Below, piece by piece: positions 2,728 to 31,667 of a DNA stretch of 31,667 nucleotides; within the stretch, counting starts at the first letter, position 1, and every line of letters begins with the position of its first letter. The notes beneath the pieces are model-generated. The model was not told where the DNA came from and searched no databases. It saw only the letters and a list, made by a program, of their open reading frames with translations. The stretch lies in IMG/VR virus record IMGVR_UViG_3300042874_000230, positions 1 through 31,667 of that record. The stretch is one strand, 5' to 3'. This stretch comes from a virus. Position numbers and translations under genes: made by a program.

Positions 2728-3995
2728 ACGGCCTCCTCAATCGGCGCAGGTTCGTTCAGTGCCGGCGTGCGATCGGTCGGTGGTGGGTCTGCAATGTCGC
2801 CGACCACGCCCAGATTCAACGGCTGCCAGTAGTCTTCTCCCAGTCCATCTGGCAGAGGATTCATATCCTCGAGCTCGCGAATTTCATCGGCATTGATCCA
2901 GCCGTTTTGCTTCGCGAGTTGGTAGGCTTCGTATCGCGTCTTAATGTCGCCACGCAGCAAGGCATCAACATTGAACTTGATGAAATGCGCTACGCGATCG
3001 GACTCACTCAAGAGATCAATCTTCATGCGCTGCTCAAAACGGACGAGCCACGGGCGCAAGCTGTTCACCACGAAATCAATCCCCTGGTGTTCGATGTTGC
3101 TGAACGTCGCTCGCTCGAGATCTCGCAAGAGGTGCGGCGGTACATTGAACAGCCGAGCGATTTCCGTGACGCTGAATTTCCGCGATTCTAAAAACTGGGC
3201 ATCATCAGGATTGATCCCGACCTGATTCCACTTCATGCCTTCCTCGAGGATCATCATTCGGTGCGCGTTGGTGAGACCCTGGTGTTCTTGTTCGATACTC
3301 GCCTTGATGCGGTCATAGGCTGGTATACTCAATTTGCCTGGGTGTTCCAGCACCCCGCCAGGCTTCGTATCGTTCTTGAACAAACGCGCACCATATTCCT
3401 GAGCCGCCAAGGCGAGGGCGATTGCATTCCGACCGATCGCCAGGGGCGAATATCCGGTGACCCCGTTACTGCCGAGCCCGCGCAAGTGCAGCACCTGACC
3501 CGCGGCAAGCCGCACTTCGACATTCGACGGCGGCACTTTCACGAGATAGACCAGCGGAGCTGTTGCGGTCTCTCGCACCACACGCACCCGGTCCGGATGG
3601 ATGGGCCAGAGCGCCACCATCCGCCCGCCGCCATCCAATTGCTTTTCTGACACGTGATTCCCGCGCAACAACAGATGAGCCATGGCGTTCTCACGCCATT
3701 CCATCGCCGTCTGCTCCGGGTTCGGTTGTTCGTGAATGATCCGGTAGAGTGGATGCGAGCGGGCCTTTTCCTTCCCCTTGTCCGTCTCACGCATCACATG
3801 ACCGGGCAGAGACCCAATGGTTTCCGACAGCAGACGGACCGCGGCATACACGGCCATGACTCCCATGGCGGACGTGTCGTTGATGTCGATGCCGGTCGTC
3901 GTGGGGAAGCCACCTATGGACCGATCCATCAGCTGGTCCAGATCGTTCAACGTCATGCGGCCTTCGCGTTGAAAGAGTCTCCGCAACAATCCCAT
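2724..3995 (-). CDS. Portal protein, HK97 family
   Basis: This 423-residue protein forms the dodecameric ring through which DNA enters the head and to which the neck attaches. It shows the family signature: VYAAVRLLSETIGSLPGHVM near the N-terminus, HPLYRIIHEQPNPEQTAMEWRE, and the late segment FSVTEIARLFNVPPHLLRDL followed by FSNIEHQGIDFVVNSLRPWL. ATG 3995 is chosen because it forms TGATG with the stop of the small membrane gene and sits behind AAGGTG; a TTG one codon upstream is less likely. The tail is Pro-rich and acidic. Confidence 0.96.
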   Translation of the reverse strand: MGLLRRLFQREGRMTLNDLDQLMDRSIGGFPTTTGIDINDTSAMGVMAVYAAVRLLSETIGSLPGHVMRETDKGKEKARSHPLYRIIHEQPNPEQTAMEWRENAMAHLLLRGNHVSEKQLDGGGRMVALWPIHPDRVRVVRETATAPLVYLVKVPPSNVEVRLAAGQVLHLRGLGSNGVTGYSPLAIGRNAIALALAAQEYGARLFKNDTKPGGVLEHPGKLSIPAYDRIKASIEQEHQGLTNAHRMMILEEGMKWNQVGINPDDAQFLESRKFSVTEIARLFNVPPHLLRDLERATFSNIEHQGIDFVVNSLRPWLVRFEQRMKIDLLSESDRVAHFIKFNVDALLRGDIKTRYEAYQLAKQNGWINADEIRELEDMNPLPDGLGEDYWQPLNLGVVGDIADPPPTDRTPALNEPAPIEEAV

Positions 3996-6939: not shown

Positions 6940-7110
6940 CTACGGTTCCCCTGCCTTCATGACCCTTTTCACATCAGCCAACGGCACAAACCAACCATCT
7001 CTCACCTTGAAGGCATGAGGGAAAACGCCCTTCCTGAGCCAATTCCGGACGGTCTTCGGAGTTCGACTGACGATCTCGGCTACCTTTTGCACTGTCAGAT
7101 TTTTCGGCAT
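6940..7110 (-). CDS. Small excisionase/MerR-type helix-turn-helix protein
   Basis: A 56-residue protein from ATG 7110 to TAG 6940, preceded by a very strong GGAGGAG site at ideal spacing. The sequence reads MPKNLTVQKVAEIVSRTPKT, then VRNWLRKGVFPHAFKVRDGW and FVPLADVKRVMKAGEP. This is the classical winged-helix HTH_17/excisionase layout: a helix pair with VAEIVSRTPKTVRNWLRKG, then a FKVRDGWFVPLADV wing. It could be an excisionase/RDF for the integrase or a late-operon regulator, since it sits just upstream of the packaging control interval. The fold is clear; the exact role is inferred. Confidence 0.88.
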   Translation of the reverse strand: MPKNLTVQKVAEIVSRTPKTVRNWLRKGVFPHAFKVRDGWFVPLADVKRVMKAGEP

Positions 7111-7126: not shown

Positions 7127-7744
7127 TCATCTCGGAATTGACTTCATATTCCCTACACCTACCAACATCCGGAGCTCCTCCTGTGTCGCCTCTCTTGAAT
7201 CTTTATCCCCGTTATCCACAGAATCCACGCCGCTCCGATTATTAATGCTCTTCACGGAAGAAGACGAAGAAGAAAGAGAAGACGAAGAAGAAAGAGAAGA
7301 CGAAGAAGAAAGAGAAGACGAAGAGCTATCGCCGGCCATACCTTCGGCTATGCCTGTGCTATGGCCGCGGCTATCGGGTTTTCCCCATCGTTTTGAGGCT
7401 CCCGCAACACCCTTTTCTCGTTGTTGTTCCGCATACTTACGCTGTTTCATCACTTCATCTTTTAGGCGTTGCGAGTAGAGCCGACCGTCTTTTTGGATCA
7501 AAAGCGGCTCATCGGCGTGCTGAATTTCACTGCGCAACGTCATCCATTCCTTCAGCGAGACACCCAGCGACCTCGCAATAAATGGATCACAATCGAGTAC
7601 CGAGCATTGGTCCTTCGAGTCCACCCACATATCAGCCAGGATCGCAATGTAGGCTCCTTGGGCCGCCAGGCTCATCCGTCGCACCTTCACATCGCGCCAG
7701 TCCTTTGGATAGAATCGAAATGCGGGTGATCGTTCCTTGGCCAT
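7127..7744 (-). CDS. DUF1376-type replication protein with Ser-rich repeat linker
   Basis: A 205-residue protein. Residues 6-45 (SPAFRFYPKDWRDVKVRRMS, AAQGAYIAILADMW) match the DUF1376/YdaU-like domain found in phage replication-initiation loci. A basic region (MKQRKYAEQQREKGVAGASKRWG) follows. The linker at about 138-162 is almost pure serine (SSSSSL units) encoded by 18-bp tandem repeats. The C-terminus is short and charged. With no helicase or polymerase encoded, this is the best candidate for recruiting the host replisome. The start at ATG 7744 follows AGGAAGGACCGCA. Confidence 0.85.
   Translation of the reverse strand: MAKERSPAFRFYPKDWRDVKVRRMSLAAQGAYIAILADMWVDSKDQCSVLDCDPFIARSLGVSLKEWMTLRSEIQHADEPLLIQKDGRLYSQRLKDEVMKQRKYAEQQREKGVAGASKRWGKPDSRGHSTGIAEGMAGDSSSSSLSSSSSLSSSSSLSSSSSSVKSINNRSGVDSVDNGDKDSREATQEELRMLVGVGNMKSIPR
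7260..7326. repeat. 18-bp tandem repeat inside the DUF1376 gene
   Basis: The unit GAAGACGAAGAAGAAAGA (plus strand) occurs three times in full (7260-7313) plus a partial copy. On the coding strand it encodes a six-residue Ser-Ser-Ser-Ser-Ser-Leu-type unit. The unit length is a multiple of three, so copy-number change would lengthen or shorten the linker without breaking the frame. Confidence 0.9.
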
Positions 7745-9645: not shown

Positions 9646-9719
9646 GCTTTCACTCCGAGCTGCAAGGCCTCCACCTTCATCTTGTACGGCGCCGCCATGT
9701 CGTCGACATAGACACTCAC
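9642..9719 (-). CDS. 25-codon DUF4031-like remnant or microprotein
   Basis: The reading frame GTG 9719 to TGA 9642 encodes 25 residues starting VSVYVDDMAAPYKMKV. The VYVDDMxAPY start is the N-terminal signature of DUF4031 proteins, which are normally several times longer; here it stops early. Its start overlaps the upstream gene as GTGA and its stop overlaps the downstream gene as ATGA, so it keeps the exact spacing of a translated cistron. The middle shares 26 identical bases with the ParB-family gene. It may be a recombination-truncated gene kept for translational coupling. Confidence 0.6.
   Translation of the reverse strand: MSVYVDDMAAPYKMKVEALQLGVKA
9673..9698. repeat. 26-bp direct repeat, copy 1
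   Basis: Identical to 11539-11564 in the same orientation and in the same reading frame on the minus strand (both encode MAAPYKMKVE-type peptides). Copy 1 lies in the 25-codon remnant and copy 2 in the ParB-family gene, so the two loci exchanged or copied DNA. Confidence 0.9.
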
Positions 9720-10261
9720 GTGGTTAACCGTTCATAGAGTTGCTCGACCCGCAGCGCATTCCGTGCCGTGACGTGCGACTTGTGAATCTGCAGGGCCCTG
9801 GTGGTATAGCCCAGCAGCTTCGCCAAGCGCGCGCGGGTATACCCCTCATCCAGCAATCGACGGATGAGAGACCAGGTCCGTTGGGCCGGGACCAAGGCTT
9901 TGTCGCAGTGCATGTCCGGTGTGACGTCGAGAATCCGGCGTGCGGATCGCGCCCGGATCCTCGTCTTGCGCCCGAGTTTGATCTCCTGAATCGTTTTGTC
10001 TCGTACATCAGACACGAGGGCGACCGCTCTCCGGCCCAGGCCCAGCCGAGCGAGTTTCTTGATGTGTGCGCGCGCGGGGGCGGCCGAGACAATCCCATTC
10101 CAATCGCCATTCTTCCTGGCCTGCGCGCGAACGCGTTCATTCGACGCGTTCGCCCCACGACAGTCCGCACAACGACACCCGCCCATGTATTTGATGCGTG
10201 TGCCATGGGGTTTCTGTTCGGCCAGCACCGCGGCTGGCCTCAGCGTCGAGAGATCACTCAT
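9716..10261 (-). CDS. Putative DNA-binding protein with Cys motif and C-terminal HTH
   Basis: A 181-residue protein. Residues 18-40 (HGTRIKYMGGCRCADCRGAN) match a phage motif in which a CxCxxC knuckle follows an HGT turn. The C-terminal half is basic and helical, with LLDEGYTRARLAKLLGYTTRALQIHKSHVT resembling a helix-turn-helix that reads as an arrested sigma-like or transposase-like HTH. ATG 10261 gives an ATGA overlap with the upstream zinc gene; the longer TTG start is not supported. The role is probably transcriptional, inferred from the two motifs. Confidence 0.78.
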   Translation of the reverse strand: MSDLSTLRPAAVLAEQKPHGTRIKYMGGCRCADCRGANASNERVRAQARKNGDWNGIVSAAPARAHIKKLARLGLGRRAVALVSDVRDKTIQEIKLGRKTRIRARSARRILDVTPDMHCDKALVPAQRTWSLIRRLLDEGYTRARLAKLLGYTTRALQIHKSHVTARNALRVEQLYERLTT

Positions 10262-10446
10262 CTCCCACACCGCGAGCACAGATTCGGCCGAACCCACCAA
10301 CAGCCACCCGGACAGGCGCGTTCATCGGTACAGCCGCACCCGACACAGGTTTGTTTCAGCAGCTTCGGCCGAGGGAACAGCGTGCGCCCGGCTACCTGCT
10401 CCATCGCCGCGGCCAGGTCCTGGTCGAACGAATGAGAGGGCTTCAT
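10258..10446 (-). CDS. Cys-rich zinc-finger microprotein
   Basis: A 62-residue protein with a dense metal-binding region CVGCGCTDERACPGGCWWV and a final LCSRC. This arrangement (CxxCGCT...ACPGGC.WV..LCS.C) recurs in small phage proteins of unknown function and probably binds one or two zinc ions. It is coupled on both sides by ATGA overlaps (ParB-family stop upstream, HTH gene downstream). Confidence 0.85.
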   Translation of the reverse strand: MKPSHSFDQDLAAAMEQVAGRTLFPRPKLLKQTCVGCGCTDERACPGGCWWVRPNLCSRCGR

Positions 10447-11906
10447 GCCGCCTTCGCTTTCTTGCCCTTGGCTGCCGGCACTGGGGGTTTGGATTGCAGA
10501 ATCGAGCTCAGATCGATGCCGAGATGCTTCGCCAGCTTGGGGAATTCCTGATACGAGTCATAGTTGCTCGCTTCATCATGCAGACACAGGGCGGCCAAAT
10601 GCCGGATCAGATCATCGGCGCTCTTGCCACGCGGCAGACTCGTTTTGGCCCGCCCCCAATTACTGAGAGCTTTCATGAGAGCTTTCACGAGAATATCGCC
10701 GAGCGGGCCCGTCGCTTTGGTCGAGAGTTTCGGGAGCTTGGCCTCCACCACCTTCATCACCGCCGGCGTGATCTTCTGCCAGTCGGTGCGCTTCCGCCGG
10801 TTCATCTCATAGCCCTCTTCCAGTTTCTGACGTTGGGCCTGGGCTTTCTGATCCGCCTTCGTCACAGCCGCGGTATTGCCCTTCTCCTGATCCTTGTCCC
10901 GTTTCTCTCGAGCCCGGATCTCCTTTCCCCAATGCACCAGGCACTTGTCTTTTCGAATACACACATCGAAGGCCTGGCCGCGTCCCGGTCCTGAGGCAAT
11001 CACGCCGAGCACGGCCAGGTCACACACCTTCGACTCCTCTTGTCCGTCCGCTCGAGTCCAGGCCCATTTCCCATACACCTTCGACTTGTCGGCATGGCGC
11101 ACATCATCTCTGGCCCGATAGTCATGCGTGATCTCGATCACCTTCCGTTTTGATTCCGTCGCGTTGGTGATCTGAGCCGCCGTGTCCGGAAACAACATGG
11201 GATCCACGTTCCGGCCGGTAAACCGGATATGCTGATCGATATAGGCTTGCAGCTCGCGGACACTCCGCGCCTTGACCTGGGGCTCGTCGCCCTGCTCTTC
11301 GTCAGGCATGAAGAGTCGGTGCTCGGGTTCGAACACCCCACCATCGGCATAGTCATGCTCCGGCGTGCCGATCGCCTTCGCCTGTTCGGCCGGCGTCAAC
11401 CGCGCCAGCAGAATCGCATGGCCGGCGTCGATCCTTCCTGACCAGAACAGATCACGCGCTGGCTTCGTGAGGGCGAGCAGCTTCACCCGATCGTAGATGT
11501 ACTTGACCGATTTGTTGACCCTGGCCGCGATGCTCTCGACCTTCATCTTGTACGGCGCCGCCATCAGCGCCTCATACCCGCCGGCCTCATCGAGCGGATG
11601 CACGTCCTCGCGTTGCAGGTTTTCTATCGTCAGCACTTCCATGAACACCTGATCGGTCATCTCCCGAACCAGACAGGGCAGGTCCGTGAGTCCGATGGCC
11701 TTCGCCGCCCGGTACCGCCGATGCCCCGCCGCCAGCTCAAACCCTTTGGCATTGGGCCGCACCAGCAACGGTGTGATAATCCCGGCGGTCCGGATGCTCT
11801 CGGCGAGCTGCTCGAGGGCGGGCCCGTCGTAATGCTGCCGCGGATTGTGTTTGGATTCATGCACCTTCCCGATTTCGATCACTTGATAGTCACTCGCGGT
11901 CGTCAT
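10443..11906 (-). CDS. ParB/Spo0J-family DNA-binding protein
   Basis: A 487-residue protein from ATG 11906 behind AAGGAGGGCTGT, which is clearly better than the upstream in-frame starts. The N-terminal ParB/Srx domain contains IGKVHESKHNPRQ (12-24), the GHRRYRAAK box (61-69) and ENLQRED (95-101), the motifs used for CTP binding in ParB CTPases. An HTH follows (MKVESIAARVNKSVKYIYDR, 121-140). The long C-terminal half includes a Cys/Lys segment (VCIRKDKCLVHWGKEI) and a charged coiled coil. No ParA partner is present, so gene regulation or DNA organisation is as likely as plasmid-like partition. A palindrome lies just upstream of its start. Confidence 0.92.
   Translation of the reverse strand: MTTASDYQVIEIGKVHESKHNPRQHYDGPALEQLAESIRTAGIITPLLVRPNAKGFELAAGHRRYRAAKAIGLTDLPCLVREMTDQVFMEVLTIENLQREDVHPLDEAGGYEALMAAPYKMKVESIAARVNKSVKYIYDRVKLLALTKPARDLFWSGRIDAGHAILLARLTPAEQAKAIGTPEHDYADGGVFEPEHRLFMPDEEQGDEPQVKARSVRELQAYIDQHIRFTGRNVDPMLFPDTAAQITNATESKRKVIEITHDYRARDDVRHADKSKVYGKWAWTRADGQEESKVCDLAVLGVIASGPGRGQAFDVCIRKDKCLVHWGKEIRAREKRDKDQEKGNTAAVTKADQKAQAQRQKLEEGYEMNRRKRTDWQKITPAVMKVVEAKLPKLSTKATGPLGDILVKALMKALSNWGRAKTSLPRGKSADDLIRHLAALCLHDEASNYDSYQEFPKLAKHLGIDLSSILQSKPPVPAAKGKKAKAA
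11539..11564. repeat. 26-bp direct repeat, copy 2 (inside ParB-family gene)
   Basis: Exact copy of 9673-9698, encoding residues around LMAAPYKMKVESIAA at the front of the ParB HTH. Since the peptide fits the ParB family well here, this copy is likely the donor and 9673-9698 the recipient. Confidence 0.9.
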
Positions 11907-11923
11907 ACAGCCCTCCTTGGTGA

Positions 11924-11941
11924 TGTGCAGACGTATGCACA
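11924..11941. promoter_or_regulatory. Near-palindrome upstream of ParB-family gene
   Basis: TGTGCAGACGTATGCACA is a palindrome except for one central base pair. It differs from the perfect 18-bp palindrome at the circle join (31537-31554) at only 3 of 18 positions. It lies a few bases upstream of the ribosome site of the ParB-family gene, a natural autoregulatory position. Binding by the ParB-like protein is an inference. Confidence 0.6.
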
Positions 11942-11943
11942 GG

Positions 11944-12258
11944 TCATCGTTCATACTTCCAGATCCGGATTTCACGGGCATGATTGCCGGGGCGCGTGCT
12001 CTTCTGCCGGCCGATCACTTTCCAATGCGGCCCGCGGAAGATGCCGCCCCAGCTGTTGGGGCTCTGCGGCACGAGGCCCATGCCCTCAGCGATCGAACGG
12101 AGGTTGTCAGAGGAGACGAAGCCCGACTCGTCACTGATCTTGATCGCGGCATGGCGCATGCGCGTCACGAACGACGCATCATGGTCTTCGAGGGCTTCAT
12201 GGCCCCTCTCTTTCAACACGGCTCCCGCCACCGCATCACGCAGGGTGAGTTGGGTCAT
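11944..12258 (-). CDS. Phage protein of the PNSWGxxFRGPHW family
   Basis: A 104-residue protein. ATG 12258 overlaps the upstream stop as ATGA; reading further upstream is a shadow of the membrane gene. The recognisable core is helical (SSDNLRSIAEGMGLVPQSPN) followed by SWGGIFRGPHWKVIGRQKST and NHAREIRIWKYE. Proteins with the PN.WG..FR motif and a terminal HAR.IRVW are frequent in phage early regions and look like small winged-helix or replication-accessory proteins, but no function is established. Confidence 0.78.
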   Translation of the reverse strand: MTQLTLRDAVAGAVLKERGHEALEDHDASFVTRMRHAAIKISDESGFVSSDNLRSIAEGMGLVPQSPNSWGGIFRGPHWKVIGRQKSTRPGNHAREIRIWKYER

Positions 12259-14137: not shown

Positions 14138-14311
14138 CTATTGCAGAAAGACCCATACGAGAATCGCGAAGGTCCAGGCGATCCCCACCAGCACCAACCC
14201 AGCAGCAACTTCAATCGCGACATCCGTCACGGCCTTTCGTTCCGGCATCAGTCCCATTTCGACCTTGGCCAGCAGTAAGTCCGGCTGTGCTTGGCGCGAG
14301 AGGCGCATCAT
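14138..14311 (-). CDS. Small single-span membrane protein
   Basis: A 57-residue protein with a charged N-terminal half (MMRLSRQAQPDLLLAKVEMG) and one C-terminal transmembrane helix (about 33-57, AAGLVLVGIAWTFAILVWVF). ATG 14311 gives an ATGA overlap with the stop upstream; longer starts merely read the neighbour in another frame. Function unknown. Confidence 0.65.
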   Translation of the reverse strand: MMRLSRQAQPDLLLAKVEMGLMPERKAVTDVAIEVAAGLVLVGIAWTFAILVWVFLQ

Positions 14312-14523
14312 GCGACCATCCAGATCAGGAGGCTCCAGCACGTCACGCAGACCGCGAGAGCCAGCGCCTTCCAATACATGCGAGGCCAATCCGTGGCCGG
14401 CGGCGCATCGTCCTGGAACCCCTCACGCTCCCAGACTTCAACCGGGTGAGCACACGGATGGAGGCGTTGACATGCATCGAGGGGATGGGGCCGGCGAACG
14501 TTCGGGCGTGGGGCTGCACTCAT
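14308..14523 (-). CDS. Small C-tail-anchored membrane protein
   Basis: A 71-residue protein starting at ATG 14523 behind GGAGG at five-base spacing. The soluble part carries Cys/His (PLDACQRLHPCAHPVEVWER) and the C-terminus is a transmembrane helix (MYWKALALAVCVTCWSLLIW). Together with the following membrane gene it may form a pair. No family recognised. Confidence 0.68.
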   Translation of the reverse strand: MSAAPRPNVRRPHPLDACQRLHPCAHPVEVWEREGFQDDAPPATDWPRMYWKALALAVCVTCWSLLIWMVA

Positions 14524-14546: not shown

Positions 14547-14714
14547 TTAGGCAGCCTGAGTCTTGCCGTGCTGTTTTTCTTCTTGCATGGCGCGGTCAAT
14601 GAGGCACCGCAGCACAATGGCTTTATTACCGTGTCCGTCTCGATTCGCTCGCCGTTGTAACCAGGCTTCCTGCCTGCATTTGAATCGGTAGGTCTTCGGT
14701 TTCAGTAACTTCAT
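14547..14714 (-). CDS. Ribbon-helix-helix protein, leftward arm of the switch
   Basis: A 55-residue basic protein. The layout fits RHH DNA-binding proteins: a short strand (KTYRFKC), helix 1 (QEAWLQRRANRDG), a turn, and helix 2 (NKAIVLRCLIDRAMQEE). ATG 14714 follows GGAGGGCTACA, and longer starts lack a ribosome site. It is the first gene of the whole minus-strand early operon and lies just downstream of a sigma70-like promoter that contains a tandem operator, so it is the natural Cro-like or auto-regulating component. DNA binding is inferred from the fold. Confidence 0.82.
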   Translation of the reverse strand: MKLLKPKTYRFKCRQEAWLQRRANRDGHGNKAIVLRCLIDRAMQEEKQHGKTQAA

Positions 14715-14744
14715 TGTAGCCCTCCGTATACTCATAATGGGCGC

Positions 14745-14773
14745 AATGTAGCCCTAAGTAGCCTACTTGTCAA
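14745..14773 (-). promoter_or_regulatory. Leftward early promoter (sigma70-like)
   Basis: On the minus strand a perfect -35 TTGACA (14773-14768) is followed after exactly 17 bases by TACATT (14750-14745) as -10. The spacer is almost entirely the tandem GTAGCC-type operator, so repressor binding would exclude RNA polymerase directly. It would drive the RHH gene and the early block. Confidence 0.75.
14747..14768. promoter_or_regulatory. Tandem operator OL
   Basis: Two 10-base units, TGTAGCCCTA and AGTAGCCTAC, then TT. The second half also forms an inverted repeat AAGTAG-C-CTACTT. It shares 18 of 22 bases with the second operator at 14867-14888 and sits between the -35 and -10 of the leftward promoter. 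Confidence 0.8.
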
Positions 14774-14838
14774 CTGGGAAAATTAAGCAAAGATGGCACT
14801 AGTCGTTCCACGTAGTGCGAAAGAGGTTGCGTAGAACC

Positions 14839-14867
14839 TTGACGCGGTAGGATGAAGTAGCTAGACT
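14839..14867 (+). promoter_or_regulatory. Rightward promoter (sigma70-like)
   Basis: TTGACG (14839-14844), a 17-base spacer and TAGACT (14862-14867) form a plausible promoter for the plus-strand RHH-integrase-lipoprotein block. The second operator starts at the last base of the -10 box and covers the expected transcription start. Confidence 0.65.
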
Positions 14868-14888
14868 GTAGCCCGTTGTAGCCTACTT
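14867..14888. promoter_or_regulatory. Tandem operator OR
   Basis: Units TGTAGCCCGT and TGTAGCCTAC, then TT, with 10-base spacing. It overlaps the start site region of the rightward promoter and ends about 18 bases before the RHH start codon at 14906. RHH repressors typically bind such tandem sites cooperatively. Confidence 0.8.
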
Positions 14889-14905
14889 AAGATTGGAGGT
14901 GAGAC

Positions 14906-15112
14906 ATGATGCCCTCGACGCGATTAGTTCCCGTTCGTAGTTATTTTGAGCCGACGGTCTATGAGCGCATGGAACAGGCACGAGCACGTCTGCGCCGGAT
15001 CAGCATAAGTCGGTTTGTAGAGGATGCTGTGCTAGAGAAGCTGGAACGCATGGAGGGGTTAAGTCGCCCTATTCAGCTGGCCCCGAATAAGCGCAGCCGC
15101 GCTGCTGGATAG
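14906..15112 (+). CDS. Ribbon-helix-helix protein, rightward arm (candidate repressor)
   Basis: A 68-residue protein starting at ATG 14906 behind GGAGGTGA. It shows the RHH order: strand (RLVPVRSYF), helix 1 (EPTVYERMEQARARLR) and helix 2 (SISRFVEDAVLEKLERMEG), with a basic tail (NKRSRAAG). It is the first plus-strand gene and is transcribed toward the integrase, the position held by the lysogeny repressor in temperate phages. No CI-like HTH/peptidase repressor is present elsewhere. A repressor role is inferred. Confidence 0.85.
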   Translation: MMPSTRLVPVRSYFEPTVYERMEQARARLRRISISRFVEDAVLEKLERMEGLSRPIQLAPNKRSRAAG

Positions 15113-15303
15113 GGGAGATTTTGGGGGCCTGATGGTTGATCAAAAAAAGACAGCCTGAGTCAGAACGGACAGGCGTGAAGGAAATCTATGTAGACGATTG
15201 ACTGACACGGGAAATCTTACGTAGCGGCACGTAACCCCTTCAGTGGGATTTCAATTTTCCCAATGAACACTTTAGATTGCAGCATCATGGGGCGAGAATA
15301 ACC
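15113..15303. promoter_or_regulatory. Non-coding region before the integrase, candidate attP
   Basis: About 190 bases without a plausible gene. They contain the inverted repeat TTACGT-AGCGGC-ACGTAA (15217-15234), near-direct repeats GGAAATCTATGTAGACG (from 15180) and GGAAATCTTACGTAG (from 15210) spaced 30 bases apart, and an outer inverted pair GGGAAAT / ATTTTCCC. This mixture of a core-like inverted repeat and arm-like repeats is what attP regions show. Confidence 0.5.
15217..15234. repeat. Inverted repeat TTACGT-N6-ACGTAA
   Basis: Perfect 6-base arms with a 6-base spacer, about 70 bases before the integrase start. The geometry matches tyrosine-recombinase core sites (two inverted binding sites flanking a 6-8 base crossover), although a small hairpin terminator for the RHH gene is an alternative. 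No U-run follows. Confidence 0.55.
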
Positions 15304-16161
15304 ATGCTTGAGTTTATCGAGATCTATCTGAGGAACCATGTGGCTCAGTTGACTGTCGGAAAAGAAATGACAGCAACCATCCGTAGGTATTTTGTCCCAC
15401 TCTACCAGACGCCATTATCCGAACTGACACCCATCCAGATCGAGGAGTGGTTTCATCGGATCGGCGCAATCTCCCCGAGCATGGCCAACAAGTGCATCTC
15501 AATTCTTCGAACCATGTTCGAGAAAGCCAAGGATTGGCGTCTGTTCGCAGGCGAGAGCCCAGCGCAGCGCGTAAGGAAATATGGTGAGACTGCCCGAGAG
15601 CGATTCGTGCAGCCGGACGAAATGCCGAGAGTCATGGCGGCCCTCAAGGATCGTGATGATATGACGCAATGCTATTTCCTGCTCTGTCTGTTGGTGGCCT
15701 GTCGCCGCAGTGAAGGCTTGACCATGCGCTGGCGTGATCTCGATATCCTGAATGGCCGATGGTACAAGCCTAGGACCAAGAGCCGAGGCACGAAACCGCG
15801 CCGAGGGCAGAATGTCCCTGTGCCGCTCGCCTTAATGGCTCGTCTCAATGCGCTTCCACGAACGAATGAATTTGTTTTCGCAACCAAGAAGGGCCACTGG
15901 TCGACGTCGCTCGTCTTTGAACGTTGGGACCTGATCCGCTCGCAGGCTGGCATTCCAGATGTGACGATTCATGATCTTCGGCGCACCTGTGCCTCGTGGC
16001 TGGCCTGTCATGGGGAAAACCTCGCGATAATCGGGAATGTGTTGAATCACACCGGACTCCAGCACACGGCAATCTATGCTCGGCTCAACATCTCGCCGGT
16101 CACGAGAGCCCTAGAAGAAAACAGCGTCAGAATGTTAGGATTGCCTCCCAATTCGGTCTAA
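15304..16161 (+). CDS. int: Tyrosine recombinase (phage integrase), short form
   Basis: A 285-residue integrase (294 if TTG 15277 is used) that should insert and excise the phage. Core-binding SAM-like domain: about 1-90. Catalytic domain: Arg I in VACRRSEGLTMRW (R134), Lys region KSRGTKPRRGQNVPV, HDLRRT (H223, R226), LNHTG (H249) and nucleophile in TAIYARL (Y258), so all catalytic residues are present. It lacks the separate arm-binding domain of lambda-type integrases. The lipoprotein gene follows 14 bases later, so the two are co-transcribed. Confidence 0.95.
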   Translation: MLEFIEIYLRNHVAQLTVGKEMTATIRRYFVPLYQTPLSELTPIQIEEWFHRIGAISPSMANKCISILRTMFEKAKDWRLFAGESPAQRVRKYGETARERFVQPDEMPRVMAALKDRDDMTQCYFLLCLLVACRRSEGLTMRWRDLDILNGRWYKPRTKSRGTKPRRGQNVPVPLALMARLNALPRTNEFVFATKKGHWSTSLVFERWDLIRSQAGIPDVTIHDLRRTCASWLACHGENLAIIGNVLNHTGLQHTAIYARLNISPVTRALEENSVRMLGLPPNSV

Positions 16162-16175
16162 TCCAGGGGGCTACC

Positions 16176-16544
16176 ATGAAGATATTTACTGTAGTGTTGG
16201 GATTGGCACTCTTGGTCGGCTGTGCAAACCTGAGCCCTGAACGGCTGGCGCAAGCTGACTACGGCCGGTTAGATCCCGAGTACAAAGAGGCGATCACACT
16301 CTACATGCTCGACAAGTTCGTGGATCCAGAATCGGCACGATACCGCTATCTAGAAGCACCCAAGAAAGGCTATGCCTATGTGGACGGCCCCAATTCACCT
16401 GTATTCGGGTACATCGTGACGGCCCGGATCAATGCCAAGAATCGCATGGGCGGGTATGCCGGGGAGGAACCGTATACGTTTCTCGTGCGGGACAAATCGG
16501 TCTGGATGATTACGTATTTTACAACCCATCAAACCGTCGAATGA
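16176..16544 (+). CDS. Lipoprotein, probable lysogenic-conversion gene
   Basis: A 122-residue protein starting at ATG 16176 behind AGGGGG; longer upstream readings only shadow the integrase. The signal peptide MKIFTVVLGLALLVGC ends in a lipobox (LVGC, C16). The mature part contains FVDPESARYRYLEAPKKGYA and VTARINAKNRMGGYAGEEPY, resembling bacterial lipoproteins with an NAKN..GGY.G motif. Expressed with the integrase, it would be made in the lysogen and may alter the cell surface or block superinfection. Family likeness is from memory; the role is inferred. Confidence 0.85.
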   Translation: MKIFTVVLGLALLVGCANLSPERLAQADYGRLDPEYKEAITLYMLDKFVDPESARYRYLEAPKKGYAYVDGPNSPVFGYIVTARINAKNRMGGYAGEEPYTFLVRDKSVWMITYFTTHQTVE

Positions 16545-31536: not shown

Positions 31537-31554
31537 AGTGCAGACGTCTGCACT
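31537..31554. repeat. Perfect 18-bp palindrome at the circle join
   Basis: AGTGCAGACGTCTGCACT is self-complementary without a loop. It lies in the 42-base gap between the connector gene start and the accessory head gene stop. It is nearly the same as the palindrome upstream of the ParB-family gene. Palindromes this long usually bind a dimer; an attenuator hairpin without loop is unlikely. Confidence 0.85.
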
Positions 31555-31667
31555 GCGGAGCCTTAGTCGAGCAACGCGCTCGGCGGTGCGGCACCCTGAT
31601 AGCGTGAGCCGTGGAGAATGTAGGCCACGCCATAGAAATCGGCGTTAGCTCCAGGAGAGGCCCCCAC
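31541..31667. repeat. Terminal direct repeat, right copy
   Basis: Exact duplicate of 1-127. It contains the last 34 codons and stop (31563) of the accessory head protein gene, truncated at the window edge only because of the linear cut. Confidence 0.95.
31563..31667 (-). CDS. 3' part of the accessory head protein gene (duplicate of 23-127)
   Basis: The stop at 31563 and the upstream codons repeat the end of the gene at 23-499. It is not a second gene; it is the same locus seen twice because the contig ends overlap. Confidence 0.9.
   Translation of the reverse strand: MGASPGANADFYGVAYILHGSRYQGAAPPSALLD

Follow-up and report, generated by a model that had tools for sequence, protein, structure and literature searches.

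A divergent pair of small RHH-type proteins as a candidate lysogeny switch in a metagenomic tailed phage genome

Introduction

The immI region of phage P22 contains the divergently oriented genes mnt and arc with their operators between them (annotated in NC_002371); Mnt acts in lysogeny and Arc in lytic growth (PMC7549136). The main lysogeny repressor of SSV1, F55, is a ribbon-helix-helix (RHH) protein of 55 amino acids that uses 11-nucleotide sites present in several copies at the early promoters and at its own promoter (PMC9608457). In mycobacteriophage BPs immunity is integration-dependent, the repressor gene lies beside the integrase gene and its 3′-end is where attP is situated (PMC4557955). 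The Agrobacterium phage Atu_ph08 encodes an Arc-family gene directly upstream of its integrase, and a C2-like gene as well (PMC6630229).

The DNA analysed here is a virus record of 31,667 bases (IMG/VR record IMGVR_UViG_3300042874_000230), referred to throughout, at its full length, as the window; it is known solely from metagenomic DNA. To our knowledge, RHH repressors take part in lysogeny control mainly as accessories (P22 Arc/Mnt) or in an archaeal virus (SSV1 F55). In the lambdoid CI/Cro arrangement, divergent promoters share operators and drive the first genes of the lytic and lysogenic programmes. A sequence-only reading of the window had proposed that two divergently encoded RHH proteins replace CI and Cro in this phage, and this proposal was followed up by computational analysis of the region and its relatives.

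Results

Genome organisation and features of the divergent region

Positions 1–127 of the record were identical to positions 31541–31667, forming an exact direct terminal repeat of 127 bp, and the record is classed as linear. As its first and last 127 bases are the same, the genome is probably complete at approximately 31.5 kb and either circular or terminally redundant. The minus strand encoded the head and packaging genes, the early genes and the tail/lysis genes. The sole plus-strand operon with family support (14.9–16.5 kb) comprised a tyrosine integrase with a small ORF ahead of it and a lipoprotein-like gene behind it; this layout agrees with the earlier claim of one divergent point in the genome, judged by the strands of the ORFs that have family matches. 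The early region of this integrase-bearing phage also encoded a ParB-like protein of 512 amino acids (10443–11981, minus strand). Neither Rfam families nor tRNA genes were found in the window, and when genome contigs were scanned with two alignments of the integrase neither a host nor a prophage turned up. The features of the divergent region are as follows.

14138–14314 and 14308–14517, minus strand: short hydrophobic ORFs behind RHH1, with a probable membrane-spanning segment
14547–14714, minus strand: RHH1, RHH-like protein of 55 amino acids heading the early operon (start context, structural model, dN/dS); proposed Cro/Arc-like role
14745–14773, minus strand: early promoter, TTGACA-17-TACATT, a consensus match with the −35 conserved in L002
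14747–14768, no strand assigned: operator 1, half-sites GTAGCC at 14748 and 14758, within the −35/−10 spacer of the early promoter
14839–14867, plus strand: RHH2–integrase promoter, TTGACG-17-TAGACT, a consensus match with hexamers and spacing identical in L002
14847–14888, no strand assigned: operator 2, GTAG half-sites at 14847, 14857, 14868 and 14878, containing the 22-mer at 14867–14888
14906–15112, plus strand: RHH2, RHH-like protein of 68 amino acids heading the integrase operon (sub-threshold profile matches); proposed lysogeny-repressor role
15104–15132, plus strand: block of 29 bp spanning the RHH2 stop, unchanged in L002 and still discernible in L008 and L009; attP candidate
15304–16161, plus strand: tyrosine integrase of 285 amino acids (family matches)
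16176–16544, plus strand: small lipoprotein-like gene (phrog_2320) ending the integrase operon; putative superinfection exclusion

Relatives are named by L numbers. Scans of viral records with RHH1, RHH2 and the integrase yielded a single close relative, along with three others at 52–53% integrase identity; the nearest is L002/L003.

Promoters and operators

Both promoters were present as the sequence-only reading had described them, sigma-70-like and one ahead of each gene. Two consensus promoter matches occurred in 3 kb compared to a mean of 1.6 in shuffled sequence; because shuffles give about as many matches, the consensus proves nothing by itself and was rejected as stand-alone evidence.

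The 22-mers TGTAGCCCTAAGTAGCCTACTT (14747–14768) and TGTAGCCCGTTGTAGCCTACTT (14867–14888) were the only two matches in 31.7 kb with three or fewer mismatches to TGTAGCCNNNNGTAGCCTACTT, where 0.01 were expected, and the two promoter halves matched each other locally to a degree that none of 200 shuffles attained. Operator 1 filled the spacer between the −35 and −10 of the early promoter. At the RHH2–integrase promoter four GTAG half-sites followed one another at steps of 10, 11 and 10 bp, so that they take in the spacer and the −10 as well as the expected start site; such an array of any 4-mer was seen in 0/500 shuffles. A 22-base tandem operator is therefore found on each promoter, as had been claimed, but the plus promoter carries four half-sites and not two. 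The early and lysogenic promoters thus share one kind of operator, as they would in a phage immunity switch.

When viral records were searched with the exact operator pattern, the record of L002 alone matched. The half-site columns were identical in L002 at 30 of 30 positions, whereas the remaining 161 columns agreed at 103 (p 7e-6), and the block 14747–14773 was conserved in full (27/27) whereas the DNA between the promoters was not (33/65). Since the bases between the half-sites vary in L002, it is the half-sites that are held. A third copy of the repeat (14715–14736) was not accepted as an operator, since it falls on the ribosome-binding region of RHH1, is only 68% alike and has a GTAG that L002 does not retain.

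The two divergent proteins

The minus-strand ORF at 14547–14735 was present. Its likely start is the ATG at 14714, giving 55 amino acids instead of 62, because this ATG is preceded by GGAGGG and L002/L003 has no in-frame start upstream. The plus-strand ORF was found at 14906–15112 and is preceded by GGAGGTGAGAC. Between the window and L002, dN and dS were 0.05 and 2.2 for RHH1 and 0.11 and 0.95 for RHH2; these values indicate purifying selection on both genes, and RHH1 is much the more conserved of the two.

Structure prediction had been suggested as a check on both proteins, and its outcome differed between them. The AlphaFold2 model of RHH1, built from a four-sequence alignment, had a pLDDT of 81 and consisted of an extended N-terminus followed by helices at residues 16–26 and 30–50. 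Its Foldseek list was made up mostly of RHH proteins (Arc, CopASO, AtaR, TacA1, AmrZ, CopG and MatP), each at an E-value of approximately 1 or more, and a second structural aligner agreed (Z up to 4.5). Pfam and PHROG gave no match for RHH1, which probably has an RHH fold on this moderate structural support. The RHH2 model was poor (pLDDT 63). Sub-threshold profile matches of RHH2 were to Rv0623-like (E 0.1), RelB and YlcI/YnfO families and its homologue in L002 gave a sub-threshold match to RHH_1 (E 0.05), those to RHH-type families aligning at the expected place. Because of these matches, and because the two L009 proteins are paralogues (see below), RHH2 is provisionally called a likely RHH protein. 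The claimed pair of divergent small ORFs is thus present, with starts at 14714 and 14906, and support for the RHH fold is moderate for RHH1 and weak for RHH2. A PDB sequence search returned nothing useful; the RHH proteins had no relatives among 50,697 phage records, and nothing similar was found in plasmid DNA.

Short hydrophobic ORFs, probably membrane-spanning and differing in sequence, lay right behind RHH1 at four loci (the window, L002, L008 and L009).

Divergence of the cassette between L008 and L009

L008 and L009 were found by the integrase scan and encode integrases 53% identical to that of the window. Both have the same gene order, a minus-strand ORF of 50–51 amino acids, an intergenic region and a plus-strand ORF of approximately 70 amino acids, with the integrase approximately 1 kb further on. 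The minus-strand protein showed 37% identity to RHH1 in L008 and 6% in L009. The L008 operators, TACTAGTACC and ACTTGAGTAGTAC, each recurred inverted at the opposite promoter; this two-part match was not reached in 500 shuffles, although the 10-mer on its own was weak (9/200). In L009 the operator TATGCCCTACTA likewise recurred inverted at the opposite promoter (0/200 shuffles), and it belongs to a series of four ATGC spaced exactly 10 bp apart, which no shuffle out of 500 produced.

L008 and L009 are closely related to each other, and their alignment showed matching stretches of 88–93% nucleotide identity to the left of the cassette and 81–97% to the right. Between these flanks no DNA match was found over L009 positions 1672–2355, a span that opens just past RHH1, takes in the operators and closes with the end of RHH2; the right-hand match restarted at position 2356, the stop of the plus-strand gene. 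With no DNA match inside the cassette and flanks of 81–97%, both proteins and the operators thus appear to change jointly, as one cassette in a similar background, in this one genome pair.

The two L009 proteins were paralogues (37% identity over 35 amino acids, E 1e-5) and have in common the strand Q[IV]V[AG]YV. In RHH proteins the strand is the part that reads the DNA. This paralogy gives the strongest indication that the two proteins of a pair can recognise common sites. The presumed DNA-reading strands of the window's pair, KTYRFKC and VPVRSYF, are less alike than those of L009, so that a common specificity of RHH1 and RHH2 is not evident from them and is put forward as a proposal. In L020, whose integrase is 34% identical, none of the ORFs listed within the approximately 350 bases available upstream of the integrase ORF was RHH-like, an uninformative result.

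Search for a conventional repressor

At E ≤ 1, neither HTH_3 nor HTH_19 nor Peptidase_S24 was matched anywhere in the full records of the window and its relatives, although the records of some relatives may be fragments; control genomes were positive. A Pfam search of 48 window ORFs revealed no CI, antirepressor or S24 family among the 25 families listed out of 28. For the families covered, these results support the claim that the window encodes no CI-like repressor. An ORF of 56 amino acids at the end of the early region (6943–7110, minus strand) matched HTH_17 and is Xis/MerR-like; it also matched phrog_66, resembles an excisionase and is present in L002's record. Weak HTH matches were found in the gene at 9716–10300. 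Neither is positioned like a switch, yet a repressor of an unrecognised family may lie elsewhere.

The integrase operon and the 29-bp block

The lipoprotein-like gene at 16176–16544 is a possible candidate for superinfection exclusion; a phrog_2320 gene also closes the integrase operon in L002 (about 7242–7636). The 29-bp block over the RHH2 stop was located at about 6196–6224 in L002, about 2400–2425 in L008 and about 2356–2382 in L009, with one copy per record. It might be attP or another cis element; its structure was not unusual and it was rejected as a stable RNA. If it is attP, integration would change the terminal part of the repressor gene, which is what happens in BPs. Additionally, a conserved CTAGGG-rich stretch was observed just before the integrase in L007 (1–64) and in L008 and L009 (about 3250–3358), and the L007 contig starts within this stretch, as might occur at an attachment site.

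Discussion

Proposed switch and alternative explanations

We propose that this region serves a temperate tailed phage as its immunity/lysogeny switch, in which two small RHH-type repressors would compete on common half-sites, and give this reading a probability of approximately 0.6. The broader proposal, a temperate tailed phage family whose sole lysis–lysogeny switch is a competing, integrase-coupled RHH pair with heteroimmune cassettes and without a CI/Cro-type or self-cleaving repressor, stands at roughly even odds. The RHH–RHH immunity circuit put forward earlier is thereby partly supported: its anatomy, its conservation and above all the joint divergence of L008 and L009 fit it better than the rivals considered, and from these we infer the binding of each protein, their competition, their roles and immunity itself.

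In the proposed mechanism RHH2 would be the CI/Mnt-like lysogeny repressor, blocking the early promoter and limiting its own, and would be made from the operon in which the integrase and a putative exclusion lipoprotein are also encoded. On DNA, adjacent dimers of RHH proteins typically sit about one helical turn apart, a spacing that the 10–11-bp steps of the half-sites match, and RHH2 would sit on these half-sites as side-by-side dimers. RHH1 would be Cro/Arc-like and made first in lytic growth; it would occupy the same half-sites, close the RHH2–integrase promoter and later tune its own, early promoter. The outcome would be set by the bias in sites, four on the integrase side and two on the early side, together with the relative amounts of RHH1 and RHH2. 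Induction would have to proceed without S24-type self-cleavage of a repressor, and so would depend on proteolysis, on an antirepressor or on altered dosage.

In a first alternative, only one of the two proteins, most likely RHH2, uses the operators, autoregulates and represses the early promoter, and RHH1 is an early regulator acting on another target. The differing strands in the window (KTYRFKC and VPVRSYF) are as this would predict, and RHH1 is far better conserved than RHH2, as if the two were under different constraints. Against this, the L009 pair are paralogues with the same strand, and both proteins diverge along with the operators between L008 and L009; we regard a one-repressor switch as unlikely, though the most probable of the alternatives. 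A lower probability is given to an accessory region of the P22 immI kind, in which the pair would control a secondary function, with the true repressor belonging to an unrecognised family and encoded elsewhere, for example by the HTH_17 ORF (6943–7110) or the gene at 9716–10300. P22 itself is a precedent, the HTH_17 ORF is shared with L002's record and there are the weak HTH matches at 9716–10300. However, the pair lies at the only divergent point and heads the early operon as well as the integrase operon, searches for HTH_3, S24 and HTH_19 proteins were negative for the window and its relatives, no antirepressor family was matched beside RHH1, and the HTH_17 ORF looks excisionase-like (phrog_66).

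It is improbable that the region controls only integration and excision, with RHH2 regulating the integrase or serving as a recombination directionality factor, and with recombination arm sites in the repeats. Although RHH2 is directly upstream of the integrase and the conserved block near its stop could be attP, the repeats coincide with elements of both promoters, the early one included, the integrase is short (285 amino acids) and a separate Xis-like ORF is present. Least probable of all, and very much so, is that the RHH proteins are antitoxins whose toxins are the small membrane ORFs behind RHH1. Many of the structural neighbours of RHH1 are antitoxins and short hydrophobic ORFs do come after it, but a toxin family is absent beside either gene and the shared operators at the divergent integrase promoter would be left unexplained.

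If the competing-pair reading is true, the whole decision circuit of a bacteriophage lineage would come down to two proteins of 55 and 68 residues, a minimal switch, and annotation that recognises only CI would strip temperate phages of the 'repressor' label. The loci offer at least three natural specificities in which the co-evolution of a repressor pair with its operators can be studied.

Comparison with known systems

No published account of such a circuit in a tailed phage was found in the open-access literature. The closest likeness is to P22 immI, which also has a divergent pair of small RHH repressors (Arc of 53 and Mnt of 82 amino acids) with promoters and operators between them. This divergent-pair layout was found in the window, L002, L008 and L009, the RHH nature of the plus-strand protein being provisional. 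In P22, however, the pair is subsidiary to the C2/Cro switch and governs production of the antirepressor Ant; here the ORFs after RHH1 showed no antirepressor family match and included no ant-like gene. Arc and Mnt have separate operators and no link to the integrase, whereas the window has one operator type at both promoters and is integrase-linked. Comparison with Arc and Mnt by hhalign gave a probability below 2% in 4/4 comparisons; the alignments were small, and distant homology is possible.

SSV1 F55 is a lone RHH repressor acting at several promoters in an archaeal fusellovirus, in contrast to the two proteins found here; operator copies of the F55 type at several promoters were not found, the sites being confined to one region of the 31.7-kb record. 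The BPs system resembles the present one in that the repressor gene adjoins the integrase and a conserved block lies at the 3′-end of RHH2, but in the BPs type attP lies within the repressor gene, which also encodes a C-terminal degradation tag, whereas the candidate attP block shares no more than the last codons with RHH2.

With the lambdoid CI/Cro system the locus has in common divergent promoters, shared operators, the position of the first lytic and lysogenic genes and specificity cassettes. Lambdoid heteroimmunity regions are cassettes of differing specificity in similar backgrounds, and L008 and L009, whose proteins and operators have diverged in concert, resemble them in this. The lambdoid pair, in contrast, is of the HTH_3 type and usually includes an S24 domain, neither of which was found here, and its operators are separate dyads, whereas those described here are direct arrays of half-sites about one helical turn apart. 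Compared to these precedents, and as far as the families tested allow, the present system differs in that the pair is the only switch recognised, that one operator type serves both promoters and that the pair is linked to the integrase. The system looks like an immI-like pair that is the only recognised switch of its phage and is wired to the integrase.
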